DNA of 45,956 bases from an uncultured Candidatus Poseidoniales archaeon (GCA_902605365.1 CACLCM010000012.1:1-45956), one strand, 5' to 3'; shown: positions 19,791-29,521, numbered from the stretch's first letter. Numbers and translations: made by a program. Notes: generated from the letters alone by a model not told the origin.

Positions 19791-22742
19791 TCAATTGAAG
19801 AAATCTTCGAAATCGTCATCCATGTTTGCTGGTTGATTAGCGGCTCTCTTGGCAAGGACTCTTTTCATCCTCTTTCTCTTCTTGAGAATTAGTGGCAGTC
19901 CGATAAAGTTGATCATTATCGTGAGAAGCATAACCATTCCTGCAATTTGGAAATTTTCTATTTCGATATACTCTTCTAATTGTCCAAACCATTCAACTCC
20001 ATATGGTGGCTCTGGCGGTTCTGGTGGTTCAGGTACACGATATTCGTTGTAACTCCAGTATTGGTCCTCAATGTACACTCTCTCGACGTTATTTGAAGGA
20101 TAGTCAATGAATGTGTACTCATTACCTACTGTGTCAAGTGGAGTCAAAATGTAGTAGTATGTTCTGTATGGCATAATTCCATCGAAGTCAGTTCCATTTT
20201 CAGTAAATGTACCGGTTTCACCAGGAATGTTGACCAATCCTGTTGCTATTGGCTCAATGTATCTCAAATCTATGTCGTTTGGCTTTTGCTCAATCCTGTA
20301 AATATTCCATGATATGTTACCATCTGGCTCATGATCCGGCCAAGTCCATGTCAAAGTCAACTCATAGCAGCGATTCCAATCATTGTACATATTGTAGCAT
20401 GAAGTATCATTGTTGTAAACTACTTGCGCACCCATTCCGGAAACCTCAGAGTTAGGGTCTATTGCATCTCCACAAGTTAATCCAGGGCTTCCGTCAATCG
20501 TTGAAACTTCTGCTTGCAAATAATTCGCTTTAGCAGCTCTATCGATTGGAATTATAGCATAAGATGCGCAAATACCAGTCTCTAATTCACGCTCATCAAC
20601 CCAAGTATTGGTTGTGCCGTCTAGGGATACGGAAAGAGAGCCTTGCATCAATCCTCTCCAAACGAATTCACTAGAGATGTCGTTAGGGTCAGGGAAATAT
20701 GCTGATGCTGTTATTGGACTAATAACTCGATAGATATGCCATCCTCCGAAATAAGGATTGGTTAAATCTCCAGTTGGGTCCCAATCAATTTGCATTTTTC
20801 CATCTGGCAACTTGGTCAAAATCAGTTCTCCGGAATTAATCTCAGGAGGAGGTAATTCTCCAATTATTAGTAAATCCATGTTCTCAATGATGTGTACTCT
20901 AAGTGTGTTATTGTCAATCAATTGGAAACTATTTTCTCCGTCTAGCGTATCCCAATCTAACTGGTCAAAACCATTTAACTGATAGATCGCAATAGATTCA
21001 CGAGGAACGTTGTCTGGGAGAAGTTTTGTGATATTGATGTCAAACTCCATCCAATCCATTCCAGCACTAGGCTCTTCAGTAGTAGACAAAACATCCACAG
21101 ATAACCTGAGAAGTGCTTCTAGTCCTTCTCCCGGGGAATAACTGACTCCTGGGATTGGATAATCGTAATACGATTCGCCTTCTGCATGTGTTCTAGTAAC
21201 TGCAGAACCATTTAGCCAATCTCCTTCACCAATATCCGTGCTGTTAAAGACAGTAATCAAAGCAGTAGCAGATTCCATAGTTCCTAGCGAGTCTACAGCT
21301 CTGACTGAAATGTAATGGTCTCCTAGGCCGATATTAATCGCAGGAACTTGAATTTCCTGTCCAGTACCTAATGGAATGATTCCGCCTAGCCACCATGAAT
21401 AGGACAGTGGCTGTGCTGCCGTTGCAGTGGTGCGGGCAGAGAATGTAATGTAGTCTGCAGTTTTGTAAGTACCATAGAAATTAGTCTGTTCTATGATTGG
21501 ATTTATTTCCCCTGCAATAACTTCAGAAATAACGTTGAGAATATTATCTGATGGTTTGGCATCATTGCCTTCTGTTAAAGCCTCGCTGACGAATACTTTG
21601 AGCCTTTTATCTCCTAATTTGTTAAGGTCAAAAATGCAAGTGGCCGAACTCCCTGGTGTGATCTCAGTAGGATTGCAGTCCTCTATTGTCTCTATGTTTT
21701 CGCTTAAGTCCATTACAGTAAATCGGACTAATGGTTCGACAACTGTGTGATTTCCTAAGTTAGAGACTACCACTGATACACTGTCATTGCCATAGAAATA
21801 CGTGGCTGAATTGGGAGCGTTAAGCGGTGCCATAGATGTTATTTGCAAGTCTACAGTGTCATCGAATGTAACTTCAGTGCTCTGCATATTATTGTATGAA
21901 TTCATGTCTCCAGAAGGGGTTCCGCTCGAATTTAATAGCCCGTAATGGAAAGTGTAAGTGCCTTCCAAGTTGTAATTCAGAGGGGGCATCGCTCTCGAGA
22001 ATGCACTCTCGCCCCACGAAGGTAGATCAGAATACGGAAGACTATCTGATGCAACTTCAATTCCATTGGAATCGATTAATTTCCAACCGATTTCTGCAAC
22101 TAGTCCGCATGTTCCACAAGATGTTACAATGCCGTCCACGTTCATTGAGTAATTGGTATCAGTATTCATGATTACTTCGCCATTATAGGTGGCTAGGTTT
22201 TCTAATTGCGATGTGATGTCTTGAGTTTCAAATGAAAGGTCTACAAGATTCTGAGCGAGGTTGAAATTGTAAACTCCTACGTCATTTGTTACGTTGTTAT
22301 CAGAATCAATGAATCTATAGACTAAGGTATATGCTCCTTCTTCACCGTCCGAGCTATACATCTTCAGGAAGGTGTGATTTACGCTTTGACCAACTGGAAT
22401 AGGGTCTATTGCTGCTGTTCCATAATCATCTCTATCATTATAGCAATTTGCAGAATCCTTTACTCCTTCACATACAAACCATTCAATCATTCTAGATTCA
22501 GTATTGTAAAAGAATCCTGAATTTGTTATCTGTACTTCTAAGGAAATAGGGTCCCATGCAGACATGAAATCACCGGGCAATGGTGAAATTGAAGCCGTGA
22601 TTTCGTAATCACCACTCACTGATGCTGCGGCGGTGGGTGTGAGTAAAATGCCTCCAAATGCAGACAATAACAACAACGAAACTAAGCCAATACTCAGGCT
22701 TGCCGAGGTATTGCTAGATTCAGCATACGCGCTGGACATCAT
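19791..22742 (-). CDS. large type I surface protein with CARDB/fibronectin-like domains
   Basis: 983 residues. A signal peptide lies at about 15-42 (IGLVSLLLLSAFGGILL, then PTAAASVSG), and the outer part is almost all beta structure. Several repeats look like CARDB/Ig-like modules (DLQITSMAPLNAPNSATYFY, DLSFETQDI), followed by fibronectin-III-like modules (NPYFGGWHIYRVISPI, NISWNIYRIEQKP). A proline stalk PEPPEPPEPP precedes the C-terminal helix (about residues 937-958), then a Lys/Arg cluster and an acidic cytoplasmic tail. No protease or glycosidase motif is seen. It is likely a cell-envelope or adhesion protein. The start is the first of two adjacent ATGs with a TATA-like box 26 bases upstream. 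Confidence 0.82.
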   Translation of the reverse strand: MMSSAYAESSNTSASLSIGLVSLLLLSAFGGILLTPTAAASVSGDYEITASISPLPGDFMSAWDPISLEVQITNSGFFYNTESRMIEWFVCEGVKDSANCYNDRDDYGTAAIDPIPVGQSVNHTFLKMYSSDGEEGAYTLVYRFIDSDNNVTNDVGVYNFNLAQNLVDLSFETQDITSQLENLATYNGEVIMNTDTNYSMNVDGIVTSCGTCGLVAEIGWKLIDSNGIEVASDSLPYSDLPSWGESAFSRAMPPLNYNLEGTYTFHYGLLNSSGTPSGDMNSYNNMQSTEVTFDDTVDLQITSMAPLNAPNSATYFYGNDSVSVVVSNLGNHTVVEPLVRFTVMDLSENIETIEDCNPTEITPGSSATCIFDLNKLGDKRLKVFVSEALTEGNDAKPSDNILNVISEVIAGEINPIIEQTNFYGTYKTADYITFSARTTATAAQPLSYSWWLGGIIPLGTGQEIQVPAINIGLGDHYISVRAVDSLGTMESATALITVFNSTDIGEGDWLNGSAVTRTHAEGESYYDYPIPGVSYSPGEGLEALLRLSVDVLSTTEEPSAGMDWMEFDINITKLLPDNVPRESIAIYQLNGFDQLDWDTLDGENSFQLIDNNTLRVHIIENMDLLIIGELPPPEINSGELILTKLPDGKMQIDWDPTGDLTNPYFGGWHIYRVISPITASAYFPDPNDISSEFVWRGLMQGSLSVSLDGTTNTWVDERELETGICASYAIIPIDRAAKANYLQAEVSTIDGSPGLTCGDAIDPNSEVSGMGAQVVYNNDTSCYNMYNDWNRCYELTLTWTWPDHEPDGNISWNIYRIEQKPNDIDLRYIEPIATGLVNIPGETGTFTENGTDFDGIMPYRTYYYILTPLDTVGNEYTFIDYPSNNVERVYIEDQYWSYNEYRVPEPPEPPEPPYGVEWFGQLEEYIEIENFQIAGMVMLLTIMINFIGLPLILKKRKRMKRVLAKRAANQPANMDDDFEDFFN

Positions 22743-22862: not shown

Positions 22863-23942
22863 ATGCAGGGGGCCCGACAATCTCGCAAATCTTCATCAGA
22901 TGAGGATGGTGCAGTTGTTGCAGTTGTTGAATTTCTTTCAGCATTCACTCTATTTTTGATGATACTAACTGCATTTATGTCTCTCGCTCAACTAGAATTA
23001 GGTAGCAATGACCCTTATACCGATTTAGTCGATCGGTCCGCAGTTGATGGCTTAGACCGTCTTACCAATGGAGAAGGATGGTTTGTTCCCTATGTTGATG
23101 GCGTTAGAGATCAGGCTAATGCAACCGAAGATTGGCATATAGTGCCAGTGTCTGATTTGTACAATGGAGTACTTCAGCCAGGTATTGTTACTAATGGGGT
23201 CATTGATCTGGAACGTATTGATGCCTTGTCGAATGTAAGCATCGAAGCTATGGCGAGCGGCTTAGGGCTTGCAGATGACTTGCAGGTTAGGCTACTCGTA
23301 CAGATAGAATCATCTTCAAATTCTTCAAGAGTAGGAGCGATACTCTTCGACGGAGGTTCAGACCGCTCCACTGCGAGCACTTCTTCAGTCGCCAGTCGTA
23401 CATTCATTAGTGGCTCTGACGTAATTACGGTTAGCCTAGAGGTTCACGATGGAGGGAAGTCTCCTAAAGTTTTGAGAATCACAGAAATATCGCCGAGACC
23501 TTCGGATGGCGGCCCTGAATGGATTGAAGTTCAGAATAAAAATGGGTTTGCGATTTCGTTGAAGGGCTGGTCATTTGAGCGAAGTGGAACTTCCGGTACT
23601 ACAGATTACTTGTACAAAGATGGAGTGATTCCAGGTGGTAAACTTGCAATATTCACTGGCGACCCGTCATCTCAAGAGATAGGCAATGCCAGTGTAGTCT
23701 ACGATTTAGGAGCAAGCGGCTTCCTTGGAGTTGGTTCAATGGATGGTCTCGATGACAATTCTGGTAGACTTAGGATGTTATTTGCTGAAGATGACGAAGG
23801 AGTGGGTAACCAAGTTTGCAAAATTGAATGGAATCCTAGCACAGGTATACTTTCTAACAATACTATTGTTTGGAACGGTGGGCAACCTTCTCAATCTTCA
23901 TCTTGGAATGTTTCTCAATCCCCAACACCGGGCGAAGTGTGA
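22863..23942 (+). CDS. N-terminally anchored protein with lamin-tail domain
   Basis: About 359 residues. A short polar leader ending SSSDEDG is followed by one long hydrophobic helix (VVAVVEFLSAFTLFLMILTA) containing a glutamate, which resembles archaeal pilin-like or TadE-like N-termini. The spacing of G and E does not fit the class III signal peptide exactly, so it may simply be a type II anchor. A beta domain follows, then a lamin-tail domain from about residue 195 (LRITEISPRPSDGGPEWIEV and ISLKGWSFERSG). Lamin-tail domains in secreted prokaryotic proteins often accompany nucleases or adhesins; no catalytic domain is present. A TTG at 22848 in frame is an alternative start. It lies 53 bases upstream of three KaiC-like genes. 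Confidence 0.75.
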   Translation: MQGARQSRKSSSDEDGAVVAVVEFLSAFTLFLMILTAFMSLAQLELGSNDPYTDLVDRSAVDGLDRLTNGEGWFVPYVDGVRDQANATEDWHIVPVSDLYNGVLQPGIVTNGVIDLERIDALSNVSIEAMASGLGLADDLQVRLLVQIESSSNSSRVGAILFDGGSDRSTASTSSVASRTFISGSDVITVSLEVHDGGKSPKVLRITEISPRPSDGGPEWIEVQNKNGFAISLKGWSFERSGTSGTTDYLYKDGVIPGGKLAIFTGDPSSQEIGNASVVYDLGASGFLGVGSMDGLDDNSGRLRMLFAEDDEGVGNQVCKIEWNPSTGILSNNTIVWNGGQPSQSSSWNVSQSPTPGEV

Positions 23943-23995
23943 GCGATTGGTGCGTATCGTTCATTTAGTGTGATGATTTGGGTGGACTGTTAGCC

Positions 23996-24778
23996 ATGCA
24001 ACCCGCAACAGTCTACAGCCGCGACCGTTGTATAACGGGTATACATGGAATGGACGAGATTCTTAGAGGCGGAATACCTTACGGGTCTACGGTTCTGGCA
24101 GCTGGAACCTGTGGTTCTGGTAAGACTACTTTCGGTATGGAGTTCTTGGTAAGAGGGGCATTGGCAGGAGAAGCATGTGCTCATTTCACTGCAACCGAGC
24201 CAAGTGTCAAATTATTGGAGAATATTCGTCAATATGCATTTTTCGACATGAATATGATCGATAGCGGACTAATCAACGTATTCGACATGGATGTACTATA
24301 TTCATGGCTAGGTTTGGACAAAGCATCGTTCGATTTAGACGATGTCCACGCTCTGATTAAGGCGATAGTCGACATTGTCAACACCATTGGAGTAACTCGC
24401 CTCGTAATCGACTCTGTAACCACTCTCTGTTACAAAATTAAGAGTGAACAACTGATTCGTGATTTCTTGTTTACTCTAGGAAAGAAACTAGCAACATTAG
24501 GTTGCACTACTATTCTAATTTCAGAGATTACCTCTGCTACCGAGAACGCCCACTGGTCTTCATTCGGTGTTGAAGAAGCAATAGCAGATGGAATTATCGT
24601 AATGGGTGACGTTGAGAGAATGGGTCATCTTCTTAGATTCTTACAGGTTGTAAAAATGCGAGGTACTTCACACAGTCGTGCTAAGCATGCAATCGAACTA
24701 ACTCCTTTAGGAGTAATGCTAACCCCTATGCTGAAATGGGGAGCGGTTAGCGATAAAACCAGCCGATGGGGGTCATGA
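23996..24778 (+). CDS. KaiC-like RecA-fold ATPase with intact P-loop
   Basis: 260 residues, one KaiC domain. The N-terminal signature GIHGMDEILRGGIPYGSTVL leads to Walker A GTCGSGKTT (about residues 37-45). Walker B is TRLVIDSVTTL near 135, and ILISEIT follows. The glutamate pair usual after strand 2 in KaiC (EE) reads TEP here. These RAD55/KaiC-type proteins act in signalling or in motor complexes such as the archaellum ArlH; a single domain without KaiA or KaiB nearby does not imply a clock. The ATG at 23996 has GGTGGA upstream; a TTG at 23978 is in frame. Two degenerate relatives follow immediately, suggesting a mixed complex. Confidence 0.88.
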   Translation: MQPATVYSRDRCITGIHGMDEILRGGIPYGSTVLAAGTCGSGKTTFGMEFLVRGALAGEACAHFTATEPSVKLLENIRQYAFFDMNMIDSGLINVFDMDVLYSWLGLDKASFDLDDVHALIKAIVDIVNTIGVTRLVIDSVTTLCYKIKSEQLIRDFLFTLGKKLATLGCTTILISEITSATENAHWSSFGVEEAIADGIIVMGDVERMGHLLRFLQVVKMRGTSHSRAKHAIELTPLGVMLTPMLKWGAVSDKTSRWGS

Positions 24779-24780
24779 TT

Positions 24781-25365
24781 ATGTTTGAATTAGACCAAAG
24801 GATCGCTGAACAACTGACAGAAGTCAGCCTAAATTCATCTGTTCAAGTTCGCTGTGGAAACTCGAATGCATTTATGGTTACAGCATCTACAATGATTCCT
24901 CTCATGCAAATGTTCGAGATGGGCGGAGTTTACATCTGCGCTACCAGAGGTGCAGTAGAGATTATCGAGGCTTTCGAAGCAATAGGAGTGGATGTTTCAC
25001 ACATACAATTCGTAGACCTGGTTTCATCTGGTATTCTTGGTGGAACCGATGTTCCATACTCCAATATTTCATTCGTAGATAGCCCAATCATGCTAGAAAG
25101 CGTTCTTCTTCGCACACTTTACACTCTTAGAATTGCTAATTCCGAACGCAATTTTGTATTGATTGATTCAGTAAACGCATTAGCGATATACAACGAAGAG
25201 AGAATGCTCGCAGAATATCTTCATACATTCATCAATACTTTCCGCCAAAGAGAAGTATTGTCAATAATTTTGAACGTACCTGACCAAGTGCCTCCTATGG
25301 TACTATCAAATCTCGACCTTTACTGTACCGACTTGATTGACCGAGGACAGGTAGTGATTCACTAA
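24781..25365 (+). CDS. degenerate KaiC-like protein lacking the P-loop
   Basis: 194 residues starting at an ATG two bases after the previous stop, with GGGGGT eight bases upstream; in-frame ATGs at 24766 and 24775 are less well placed. The C-terminal half aligns by eye with the KaiC-like neighbour: RNFVLIDSVNALAIYNEERM matches its Walker B strand, and LSIILNVPDQ the next strand. The N-terminal half has no Walker A (the strand reads VQVRCGNSNAFMVTAS). No named domain is recognised with certainty. Its place between two KaiC-like genes suggests a non-ATP-binding subunit of the same complex. Confidence 0.75.
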   Translation: MFELDQRIAEQLTEVSLNSSVQVRCGNSNAFMVTASTMIPLMQMFEMGGVYICATRGAVEIIEAFEAIGVDVSHIQFVDLVSSGILGGTDVPYSNISFVDSPIMLESVLLRTLYTLRIANSERNFVLIDSVNALAIYNEERMLAEYLHTFINTFRQREVLSIILNVPDQVPPMVLSNLDLYCTDLIDRGQVVIH

Positions 25366-25379
25366 GGAGATGTTTTCAG

Positions 25380-26183
25380 ATGAGTAAAGAGGTCAAATTC
25401 GATTTGGAAGACGAGGAGTTTTTCGGTAGCGTTGGTAGTTTTGGAGTTCCAAAATTCGATAATGCAATGTACGGAGGAGTGCCTCGTGGTTTCTTAGTAA
25501 TCGGTTTTACAGACATCGGTGCAGGATCAGAACTATTCGCTAAACAATTCACTTCCCCGGCTGAAGAGCCAGATAATACAATTCTAATTTCAACAAACGA
25601 AAGCCAGCTCGAAATCGCTCGCGTTTTCAAGAAATACAGTTGGCCAACAGATATTGCTGTACGAACTCTCGGAGAAGAATTCAATGCTAGAGTTCTAGAA
25701 AAAGAATTACTTGCGAGTCGTTACCGATTGGAAGGATTCAAGCTTCCAGACATTCAAAGGCTCGCTCAGACCAGATTCGTAGATGATGACACTCAGGATT
25801 TCTTGACAGAAATGACAAATGAAATCATGGCAATGGGTCCATATTTTAGAGCAGTTGTTGATTCATTGGATTTCTTCATGCAGAGAGAAGACCCTAGCCG
25901 TGTGGTCGCAATGCTAAGAATGATGCAAGCTCATACTCAATTGAACCGTGGGATTCTTTTCATCACCGTATCAAATGATACAATTACCCCTGCAATCAAA
26001 CAAGAAATGGCTGCAATTGCGGACATGGTTTGCGATTTCAAGGTAAGAACTGTAGGTTCTGATTTCGAGACATCAATGATCGTTTCAAAATTCAGAAATG
26101 CTCCTGAGAATCTATCGATTATGGTTTACAGAGTAACTCCTGAAGAAGGAATTACCCCAGAGACCGTCGAGCGTATCGCTTGA
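25380..26183 (+). CDS. KaiC-like protein with a mutated P-loop
   Basis: 267 residues. The KaiC layout is recognisable (SFGVPKFDNAMYGGVPRGFL), but at the P-loop the sequence reads TDIGAGSELF where the first paralogue has GTCGSGKTTF: the Lys and Thr needed for phosphate and magnesium binding are replaced by Ser and Glu. Strand 2 keeps ILISTNES, and the Walker B strand is AVVDSLDFF. It is therefore a probable pseudo-ATPase or a protein that binds something else. AAGGAGA precedes the ATG, 14 bases after the preceding stop. Third gene of a three-gene KaiC-like set. Confidence 0.82.
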   Translation: MSKEVKFDLEDEEFFGSVGSFGVPKFDNAMYGGVPRGFLVIGFTDIGAGSELFAKQFTSPAEEPDNTILISTNESQLEIARVFKKYSWPTDIAVRTLGEEFNARVLEKELLASRYRLEGFKLPDIQRLAQTRFVDDDTQDFLTEMTNEIMAMGPYFRAVVDSLDFFMQREDPSRVVAMLRMMQAHTQLNRGILFITVSNDTITPAIKQEMAAIADMVCDFKVRTVGSDFETSMIVSKFRNAPENLSIMVYRVTPEEGITPETVERIA

Positions 26184-26743: not shown

Positions 26744-29521
26744 TCAACGATCTCTTAGGTAGTCTTCCCCATACCATGCCCATTGTTCCATTGTCCAACC
26801 TGTAGGCAGCCCTTCAGGAGGCAGTTGTGGAGCATTTGGTGTGCTCTGTGGTGAAACCACTTGAGGTGTAGGTAAATCAAAATCTGAATTAAATTCAGTC
26901 TTGTTTTTTCTTCTGTTAAGGAATACGATACCAGTTGCTAGTATTCCAAACAAAATTATCCCTATAACTGAAATTATTGTTGTGGTAGAAGCTCCAGATT
27001 CAGCATGTTTAGATGCATCATTAGGAAAAGCATCTGCTTTGTCAGACCAACCATCGCCATCGCTATCTGGGCAACCGAGTAGGTCTTCATAGGATTCGCC
27101 TTGAACTTCAGGGCAATCATCAGAGATCTCGCTACCTGGCTGGTCTGCATAGCTATCCCCATCGCTATCTGACCAAAGTGTACTATCGTTTGGATATGAG
27201 TCTAATTCATCATCCCATCCGTCCCCATCTGTATCAGGGCAACCATATCTCTGTTCATTCGACAGGCCAAATTCTCCTAAACAGCTATCTGGTGAATCTC
27301 CCAGCGGAGAATCTCCGAACCCGTCTCCATCATCATCTAAGTGTTGAGTACTGTCAAAGGGCAACATGTCGCCAGAGTCGGACCATCCATCCCCATCGCT
27401 ATCTAGGCAACCAAATCTATCTTGACTAGATGTTCCAAATATTTCAGGGCAAGCATCTGCCTCAAAACCAGTTGCTTCGTCTCCATACCCGTCACCATCT
27501 TGATCGATATGTTGAGTTTCTTCTAATGGGAAAGCGTCAGCTCCCAATGCGGAATCCCAATTAGAATCTGGATTCGACCATCCGTCTCCATCACTGTCTA
27601 AGCATCCTCTACGGTCTAGAGTTGAGTTTCCATAAACCGTGACACAATCATCACCATCTATTCCATCGGATTCATCTCCGTAACCATCTTCGTCTATATC
27701 TGACCACTGAGTTGGCTCGTAAGGAAACGCATCACTACTATCTGCGTGACCGTCTTCATCAAAATCTGGACAGCCAAATAATCTACCCGAATCACTCAAC
27801 CCATAATCGATTGGACAATCGTCTTGCTTGTCTAGGAAACCATCGTTATCGTCGTCCTCATCCTCATTTCTGTCTTCACAACCATCTTGGTCTACATCGT
27901 TAGATGATGTGGAGATGAAGGTCGGATGGCTTTGAGGGCACAAATCTGCATTGGCAGTAGATTGTATACAGTCCCAGTCCTCATTCCAGCCTGAATCACA
28001 AATATTGTCATTGTCGTCATCTTTGTCTTCACTGATGTCTTTACAGCCGTCATTGTCATAATCTGAATCTGAATCTGAAGTCCAGTCTAGTTCACCAATA
28101 GAGCAGCCATCTCCGCTATCCAATACTCCGTCATTATCATCATCATAATCTTCTGAGTAATCTCTACAGCCATCTGAATCATGGTCGGTAAGTAATGACG
28201 GATTCCAATTCATTTCACCTGTAGCACAGTTGTCTAAGTTGTCAAGAATGCCATCATTATCGTCGTCCTCATCGCACACATTACCCATTGCGTCATTATC
28301 GTGATTAGCCTGACTTGGGTTGGAAACTAGAGGGCAATTGTCATCTTCGTCGGCAATTCCATCATTATCTTGGTCAGACTGGGGGTCGATTCTGACAACT
28401 TCATCTTGACCATTATCTACATAGTACAGTTTTCCATTTGGTCCAATCTCTAGCCCCATAATTGACGATGCAGAGGTAAGAATAGAGCCTGCTTCAGTAG
28501 CGCTTTTTCCATTTGTACTCAAGTCATATGCAATTATACGGCTATTGCCGTTTTGAGATACGAAGAGTTGGCCATCTTCTATTGCAATGCCTGATGGGCT
28601 GCTAAGTCCTGAATCAAGTACTCCCCATTCAACTCCACTGATCCTAGAATACTCAGCAAGGTCTTCTTTTTGAGTTGTTGAAGGATTGGTTTGCCATTGT
28701 GGGTCGAGAATATTCTCGGTGTTGTAAGTGGAGTCGTCAGTATTGACCCAAAGCACCCTGTTTGCACCAGTATCGGCAATATAGAGTATGCCAGTTTCTT
28801 TGTCCAAAATCATGTGACCAGGGACTCCGAATGAACGTGAGAGTTGTATTTCGGAATACCGGCGGACGATAGCGTCTGAATGATCATCTTCACCTGTGTC
28901 ATGGTCCTCTTGGAAATCGTAATACACTAGCTCCCCATAATATCCATCGTTGTACCAATAAGCGTTACCTGAATCATGCGCAATTCCCATTCCGTCTGGT
29001 GATTCATGATTCATATCGATGTGGCTGCCCAACAATCCGTTTCCATTATTTTGATTTTCAACGGCAAAATGTGAGAGAGACGAAGGCCAAAGAGTTGGTC
29101 CCATGAATTGGTTGGGAGCACCTTGACCGCAGTAAGTATTCTGAGTTTCTTGAGCAGAACCCCACTGCCAGTCAAACTCGGGATGATATTCGCCAAATGC
29201 GATGGCACTAACTTCTTCCAAGAAGTGGTAAGCATGCGAGTCCTTACGATTTTGTGAGGTTTGGTTCTCAAGTCCAGTATTCTGGACAATTGTTATGCTG
29301 TCAGTAGCACGATTTGCAATCCAGAGTTCGTTGGCTCTTCCAGGATGGAATTCCAAATCTCTTGGGTCGGAAAGTGCATCAGACGAATCGGCTATTACCA
29401 CTTCTTCGAAGTCAACTCCGAATTGAGGTACAACGGTTGTACTTTCGTTTCCTAGCGCATGCGCGGGTAGGTACATTACGAGAATCATTAGCATTACTAC
29501 ACTAACTAGTCTGTTACCCAT
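26744..29521 (-). CDS. surface protein: beta-propeller + thrombospondin type 3 repeats + C-terminal anchor
   Basis: 925 residues. A signal peptide (about 1-23) is followed by an NHL/SMP-like beta-propeller region (about 35-375; FGVPGHMILDKETGILYIAD, LSSPSGIAIEDGQLFV). Residues about 379-835 are calcium-binding thrombospondin type 3 repeats (DSDGDGWSD, DQDGDGYGD, DDNCP). A membrane helix at about 843-865 and an NRRKNK stop-transfer cluster are followed by a roughly 50-residue cytoplasmic tail that is Pro/Gln-rich and ends with GWTMEQWAWYGEDYL and an RDR end. The rigid Ca-stalk implies display of the propeller away from the cell. AGGT lies eight bases before the ATG. Confidence 0.88.
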   Translation of the reverse strand: MGNRLVSVVMLMILVMYLPAHALGNESTTVVPQFGVDFEEVVIADSSDALSDPRDLEFHPGRANELWIANRATDSITIVQNTGLENQTSQNRKDSHAYHFLEEVSAIAFGEYHPEFDWQWGSAQETQNTYCGQGAPNQFMGPTLWPSSLSHFAVENQNNGNGLLGSHIDMNHESPDGMGIAHDSGNAYWYNDGYYGELVYYDFQEDHDTGEDDHSDAIVRRYSEIQLSRSFGVPGHMILDKETGILYIADTGANRVLWVNTDDSTYNTENILDPQWQTNPSTTQKEDLAEYSRISGVEWGVLDSGLSSPSGIAIEDGQLFVSQNGNSRIIAYDLSTNGKSATEAGSILTSASSIMGLEIGPNGKLYYVDNGQDEVVRIDPQSDQDNDGIADEDDNCPLVSNPSQANHDNDAMGNVCDEDDDNDGILDNLDNCATGEMNWNPSLLTDHDSDGCRDYSEDYDDDNDGVLDSGDGCSIGELDWTSDSDSDYDNDGCKDISEDKDDDNDNICDSGWNEDWDCIQSTANADLCPQSHPTFISTSSNDVDQDGCEDRNEDEDDDNDGFLDKQDDCPIDYGLSDSGRLFGCPDFDEDGHADSSDAFPYEPTQWSDIDEDGYGDESDGIDGDDCVTVYGNSTLDRRGCLDSDGDGWSNPDSNWDSALGADAFPLEETQHIDQDGDGYGDEATGFEADACPEIFGTSSQDRFGCLDSDGDGWSDSGDMLPFDSTQHLDDDGDGFGDSPLGDSPDSCLGEFGLSNEQRYGCPDTDGDGWDDELDSYPNDSTLWSDSDGDSYADQPGSEISDDCPEVQGESYEDLLGCPDSDGDGWSDKADAFPNDASKHAESGASTTTIISVIGIILFGILATGIVFLNRRKNKTEFNSDFDLPTPQVVSPQSTPNAPQLPPEGLPTGWTMEQWAWYGEDYLRDR
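27015..28385 (-). repeat. thrombospondin type 3 (calcium-binding) repeat array
   Basis: Encodes about 455 residues of Asp/Gly repeats. The first part has short DDDNDG-type units (N, D and C rich). The second part has about five longer units of roughly 50-60 residues built as GC-DSDGDGWSD-DAFP-DSTQ-DDDGDGFGD-DSCP-G-S--R-GC; the last unit is incomplete. DNA similarity between units is visible (recurrent ccatcgctatct-like strings). Confidence 0.85.

Follow-up and report, generated by a model that had tools for sequence, protein, structure and literature searches.

The window analysed here, 45,956 nucleotides of DNA from an uncultured Candidatus Poseidoniales archaeon (GCA_902605365.1 CACLCM010000012.1:1-45956), carries on its plus strand at 22863-26183 a quartet of genes, in which a gene for a secreted or anchored protein (gene 1) precedes three KaiC-like genes (genes 2-4, the trio). 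We propose, with a probability of roughly 60%, that genes 2-4 encode an ArlH-like cytoplasmic hetero-oligomer of KaiC-fold proteins, probably a ring, that serves a type IV pilus, and that gene 1 encodes an anchored surface or tip protein. An active KaiC-like ATPase is kept next to one or two inactive relatives throughout the phylum Thermoplasmatota, and type IV pilin genes recur directly downstream of this unit. The coordinates of the four genes agreed with a preliminary description of this DNA, as did the gaps of 2 nucleotides between genes 2 and 3 and 14 nucleotides between genes 3 and 4. Both P-loop readings given there, GTCGSGKTT in the first KaiC-like protein and IGAGSEL in the third, were present in the sequence. 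In the following, g and f numbers denote genus and family groups, respectively, and L numbers denote loci.

22863-23942, plus strand: gene 1, secreted or anchored protein of 359 amino acids with a pilin-like N-terminal helix and a lamin-tail domain; ATG start
23996-24778, plus strand: gene 2, active KaiC-like ATPase (PF06745, 178.7 bits); best start, the ATG at 23996
24104-24130, plus strand: Walker A motif GTCGSGKTT of gene 2, read from the sequence; Lys and Thr invariant in alignment A3
24653-24664, plus strand: KMRG loop of gene 2, matched by profile alignment with K224-x-R226 and K457-x-R459 of KaiC
24781-25365, plus strand: gene 3, KaiC-fold pseudo-ATPase of 194 amino acids (AlphaFold2 fold, Foldseek matches, no Walker A motif)
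25075-25098, plus strand: VDSPIMLE signature of gene 3; P, L and E invariant in 98/98 relatives
25380-26183, plus strand: gene 4, KaiC/ArlH-like pseudo-ATPase of 267 amino acids (PF06745, 47.4 bits; ArlH model, 53.4 bits)
25509-25535, plus strand: degenerate P-loop TDIGAGSEL of gene 4 (Lys to Ser, Thr to Glu), from aligned relatives
26088-26099, plus strand: KFRN loop of gene 4, matched by profile alignment with the trans-acting Lys-x-Arg of KaiC

State of the three KaiC-fold proteins

Genes 2 and 4 passed the PF06745 cut-off of 26.6 bits, and gene 3 scored 22.6 bits as a protein, below the cut-off, and 27.5 bits in the genome search, above it. The AlphaFold2 model of gene 3 (mean predicted local distance difference test score, pLDDT, 88) matched archaeal KaiC-like proteins, cyanobacterial KaiC and ArlH (FlaH) in a Foldseek comparison with PDB. 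Scanning by pattern, at one genome per species, gave 311 gene 3 relatives, the best 80 of which are titled Thermoplasmata, Thermoplasmatota, Aciduliprofundum/DHVE2, Methanomassiliicoccales, or merely Euryarchaeota or archaeon.

In the aligned columns of the Thermoplasmatota relatives, to which all family counts refer, the Walker A Lys and Thr are present in 103/103 members of the gene 2 family, and the motif is absent from 98/98 members of the gene 3 family. Lys together with Thr or Ser occurs in 0/81 members of the gene 4 family, where the Thr position is occupied by Glu (66) or Asp (12) in 78/81. No intact GKT motif was thus found among relatives of genes 3 and 4, six of the 81 gene 4 relatives (five from f3, plus L181) keeping the Lys without the Thr. 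Identical P-loop states of genes 2, 3 and 4 are repeated at 22 Poseidoniales loci. As no orthologue of gene 3 or gene 4 has a Walker A motif, neither chance nor a sequencing artefact accounts for the loss; judged from their sequences, both proteins are pseudo-ATPases of the KaiC family, not ATPases. The preliminary description had gene 3 lacking the P-loop strand and retaining a Walker B-like motif. The loop is indeed lost, being replaced by a short RCGNSN turn, and the Walker B Asp is kept in 98/98 relatives, although the predicted strand ahead of the lost loop survives (residues 25-29). The C-terminal part of the domain is also gone from gene 3. A motif (V/I)(E/D)SP(T/I)MLE is near-invariant in the 98 gene 3 relatives phylum-wide.

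The genes are held tightly together in relatives. A gene 2 relative lies immediately upstream of the gene 3 relative in 74/79 matches with room to judge, and a gene 4 relative lies immediately downstream in 58/72. Gaps of at most 20 nucleotides separate 90/95 gene 2-3 pairs and 74/79 gene 3-4 pairs. The genes are therefore not scattered among relatives, although the linkage is incomplete in one respect, no clear gene 4 orthologue having been found in the genomes of f30, f37, f38, f7 and f22. The invariant core is consequently the active KaiC plus gene 3, and a strict three-subunit set is too narrow a description. Directly downstream of the trio, a DUF763-type gene was noted at 15 loci (L163, L165, L166 and others; f24/DHVE2), with PF05559 matched in both of those scanned.

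In a tree of the gene 2 and gene 4 families, ArlH and a second KaiC paralogue, the gene 4 family formed one clade (support 95/90) nearest to ArlH (95/95; long branches, midpoint root), and the gene 2 family lay on the other side. Because the tree separates the two families in this way, the trio looks to have been inherited together and not to be a recent, decayed tandem duplication. One active and two inactive subunits kept together for the age of the phylum are what a hetero-oligomer would be expected to give, and in this respect the hetero-oligomer suggested earlier fits; that it is a mixed hexamer or acts as a motor is conjecture. The second Poseidoniales KaiC paralogue (L085-L096, e.g. L086:9329-10135) is present in almost the same set of genomes as the quartet, has a weak ArlH score and lies at several loci beside GlmS and Maf genes.

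In KaiC, each subunit reaches the ATP held by its neighbour with Lys and Arg residues (K224/R226 and K457/R459) (PMC2777353). The corresponding loop is conserved in the gene 2 family (K 103/103, R 98/103) and also in the gene 4 family (K 75/79, R 70/79, N 79/79). Gene 3 stops short of this stretch in alignments to the gene 4 family and to Methanocaldococcus jannaschii FlaH, both of which gave weak scores. Membership of a mixed ring best accounts for gene 4, which has no ATP-binding site yet conserves the residues predicted to act on a neighbour's ATP. Alternatively, the pseudo-ATPases may stay outside a ring with gene 2 and act as separate inhibitors or scaffolds made from a shared message. 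The strong divergence of gene 3, its missing C-terminal part and the loss of gene 4 where genes 2 and 3 remain would suit such a role, but the near-zero gaps phylum-wide and the Lys-x-Arg residues kept in a protein that does not bind ATP best fit packing on an ATP-binding neighbour. We therefore regard separate inhibitors as improbable.

Linkage to type IV pili

Genes within 5 kilobases (kb) of the unit were clustered at 102 loci. Among these genes, archaeal type IV pilin (PF07790, e.g. AVSPVIATILMVAITVVLAAVLYVMV) recurs most often, downstream on the same strand. A pilin lies 0-3 kb downstream on the same strand at 37/102 loci, giving 53 pilin starts in 266 kb, compared with one start in approximately 1,170 kb of the remaining flanking sequence on both strands. 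These counts come from a motif scan with 54 matches; 53 of them fall 0-3 kb downstream, and the last one, located elsewhere, gives the background. Around the KaiC2 paralogue (12 loci, 179 kb) no true pilin was found, the sole motif match having no pilin-like context. In 16 of the 37 pilin loci, gene 4 is absent and the pilin directly follows gene 3; loci of the Methanomassiliicoccales type consist of the active KaiC and gene 3 alone and then the pilin. Loci labelled Methanomassiliicoccales with a pilin behind the KaiC unit include L194 and L248-L250.

Within Poseidoniales, a pilin lies behind the quartet in g9, g16 and g18. The window's genome, which is 60% complete, and those of g2 and g3 encode an orthologue of this pilin, with head domains 29-50% identical, about 6 kb from a motor operon made up of a single T2SSE ATPase gene and a pair of T2SSF platform genes. 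Adjoining the quartet, upstream in g16 and downstream in g14, is a gene resembling prepilin peptidase (PF06847, just under the cut-off). T2SSE-family ATPases were present in 34/34 trio genomes tested outside Poseidoniales, and in Poseidoniales the two classes of non-archaellum pilus ATPase occur in quartet-holding genera but not in the other genera sampled (g11, g12, g13, g15, g17, g19 and g20). The unit thus shows the recurrent linkage to pilin, peptidase and motor genes by which an accessory component is recognised, and the pilus association is well supported. Given these links to pilin, prepilin peptidase and pilus-type ATPase, the unit is more likely to regulate a pilus or to act as its adaptor, in the manner of ArlH, than to be a stand-alone motor or a clock.

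Several observations weigh against this interpretation. No pilin lies within 3 kb at 65/102 trio loci, and the loci are related, so that none of these counts is independent. In the window's own genus, V-type ATP synthase genes follow the quartet instead of a pilin, and the motor operon is elsewhere. In some families, the trio stands beside unrelated genes (an OPT transporter in f3, DUF763 in f24). Archaella and a widespread T2SSE-like protein also contribute to the presence of T2SSE. The contrast between Poseidoniales genera in non-archaellum pilus ATPases may come down to one or a few losses, and this profile by itself was not relied on. The sequence similarity of gene 3 to genes 2 and 4 is weak, its assignment resting on the predicted fold. 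Lastly, some families with the pilin link lack gene 4, which is therefore not essential to the core function.

The trio could instead be a general KaiC signalling hub, a sensor or relay module with several outputs of which pili are just one. KaiC-like ATPases together with inactivated homologues have been proposed as archaeal signalling hubs (Makarova 2017, as cited in PMC5847659), non-pilus neighbours occur in several families, and an extra protein is encoded between genes 3 and 4 at two loci. These interposed proteins are of approximately 371-374 amino acids (L154:3751-4875 in f13; L156:10285-11400 in f20), and that of f13 matches the MetOD1 and ATC_hydrolase families and is perhaps a sensor subunit. 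However, pilin is by far the strongest recurring association outside the unit, always on the same strand and side, and the Pfam scan detected no fused input or output domains on the trio proteins of the window. A general hub is thus unlikely, if somewhat less so than separate inhibitors.

The presence of three RecA-fold paralogues with degenerate P-loops also recalls Elp4, Elp5 and Elp6, which form a hetero-hexameric ring in the Elongator subcomplex Elp456, and RPA and RadA genes lie near the trio at some f3 loci. An accessory hetero-hexamer for RNA or DNA, like Elp456 or the Rad51 paralogues and unrelated to pili, might accordingly be considered. However, the Pfam matches of gene 3 to Elp5 (E=0.1) and of gene 2 to Elp4 (E=0.33) are at noise level and give the trio no membership of the Elp4/5/6 families, the best structural matches are KaiC and archaeal KaiC-like proteins, and no recurring tRNA-modification genes appeared in the clustering of the 102 loci. 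Elp456 is, moreover, a eukaryotic accessory complex for tRNA modification. We consider this explanation very improbable.

A seeming link of the trio to the pilus operon in f3 was rejected; the shared neighbours are RPA-like proteins, which also flank the motor operon in Poseidoniales. There, the T2SSE-T2SSF-T2SSF operon directly adjoins two genes for RPA-like single-strand DNA-binding proteins (L107, L108 and L112). The f30 genomes, which may or may not represent the Methanomassiliicoccus family, contain several T2SSE ATPases, whereas Methanomassiliicoccus was reported to have no secretion ATPase in a census of 2016. Pilin_N-type matches were also seen in Poseidoniales in open frames of up to 4,700 amino acids (G025:C2:116356, G047:C8:29885 and G002:C1:1608215), possibly giant proteins with a pilin-like anchor.

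A putative pilus regulator and related systems

ArlH, a single-domain KaiC fold like the trio proteins, serves a pilus-type machine, as is proposed here for the trio. While unphosphorylated, ArlH forms a hexamer and is bound to the archaellum ATPase, from which it is released when it autophosphorylates (PMC8978795). Gene 4 resembles ArlH most in its C-terminal half (equivalog model NF052589, E=2.8e-14), although neither gene 4 (53.4 bits) nor gene 2 (33.7 bits) reaches its cut-off of 215 bits. Whereas the archaellum operon has one ATP-binding protein of this kind (PMC8978795), the trio combines one active with one or two inactive proteins outside that operon. The ArlH-like genes themselves lie elsewhere in the genomes, separate from the trio and beside a T2SSE gene of approximately 574 amino acids. 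A link of the quartet to the archaellum was rejected, as g16 genomes carry the quartet yet have no strong ArlH or ArlI match. A circadian clock of the KaiABC type was likewise set aside: the trio proteins are single-domain, and, as the preliminary description had noted, no KaiA or KaiB was recognised by eye among the open reading frames of the window.

Considering the conserved motifs, the gene linkage and the precedent of ArlH, we infer a ring, a docking partner, ATP-driven switching and a role for gene 1 as follows. The gene 2 product would bind and hydrolyse ATP. The gene 4 product, itself not binding ATP, would complete and regulate the site of gene 2 through its Lys-x-Arg loop, and the gene 3 product, with neither P-loop nor Lys-x-Arg loop, may break the symmetry of the ring or dock a partner. 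Much as ArlH docks on ArlI, the archaellum ATPase, the ring could dock on a pilus ATPase and switch its state, turning assembly on or off or choosing between assembly and retraction. The gene 1 product, pilin-like and anchored, would serve this pilus as a surface or tip protein. The further proposal that an asymmetric KaiC ring with divided catalysis (P-loop and trans-acting finger, finger only, or neither) is a type IV pilus switch throughout Thermoplasmatota is tentative, and we rate it at somewhat less than an even chance.

The bacterial clamp loader comprises an active subunit (gamma), a subunit with an arginine finger only (delta') and one with neither (delta). The division of labour proposed for the trio would be the same, by analogy only, as the clamp loader has an AAA+ fold and works in DNA replication. 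Closer to the present system, Makarova et al. (2016; PMC4858521) described ATPases of the KaiC family in the vicinity of archaeal type IV pilus loci, and inactivated homologues are known as a class. In the accessible portions of the literature on archaeal type IV pili and KaiC (PMC4858521; the 2017 hub proposal through PMC5847659 only), we found no description of a conserved set of active and dead KaiC proteins ahead of pilin genes; such a phylum-wide set thus appears to be new. The CdiP pilus of Cuniculiplasma, another member of Thermoplasmatota, has its platform protein in two genes, like the T2SSF pair of the window's genome, but the available text of its description does not mention a KaiC component (PMC12448462). 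Archaeal KaiC-like proteins are many and mostly without known partners, and the trio beside a pilin offers a concrete partner and output. If the proposed mechanism is true, it would reveal a possible means of control for archaeal pili that lack ArlH, and the trio would form a KaiC ring made asymmetric by design and not by nucleotide state.

Gene 1 and neighbouring candidate surface proteins

Two further features bear on the possible surface part of the system.

22902-23000, plus strand: pilin-like hydrophobic helix of gene 1 (GAVVAVVEFLSAFTLFLMILTAF...), an AlphaFold2 helix conserved in orthologues
19791-22742, minus strand: divergent neighbour, secreted protein of 983 amino acids with a C-terminal membrane helix and an acidic cytoplasmic tail, beside the quartet at 20 Poseidoniales loci

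The lamin-tail domain that the preliminary description assigned to gene 1 is real though marginal (PF00932, 33.3 bits against a cut-off of 34.3 bits; E=7e-8). In the AlphaFold2 model (pLDDT 86), a helix of 33 residues (19-51) is followed by a beta-rich region, part of which matches lamin immunoglobulin-fold structures in Foldseek. The association of this gene with the trio, also suggested earlier, held at 22 Poseidoniales loci and at one in f20 (L156). The core (T/V)AV(I/V)EFL is conserved in a 23-row alignment (A4), and the helix with its AVxEF motif resembles pseudopilins, pointing to a putative class III signal peptide. No Pilin_N or TadE match was found in Pfam at E<=1, and membership of gene 1 in TadE, a likeness seen by eye, was rejected.

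The 983-amino-acid neighbour gave only a marginal CARDB match (E=0.044) and is possibly a second surface partner in Poseidoniales. Its tail ends in DDDFEDFFN, and that of the g10 orthologue in DDEFAEFFQ; the KaiC unit could dock on this acidic tail. On the other side of the quartet, the window encodes at 26744-29521 (minus strand) a secreted protein of 925 amino acids that has a C-terminal membrane helix and numerous DxDxDG repeats of calcium-binding-like type; a related protein is encoded next to the quartet in g16 (L079 and L080).

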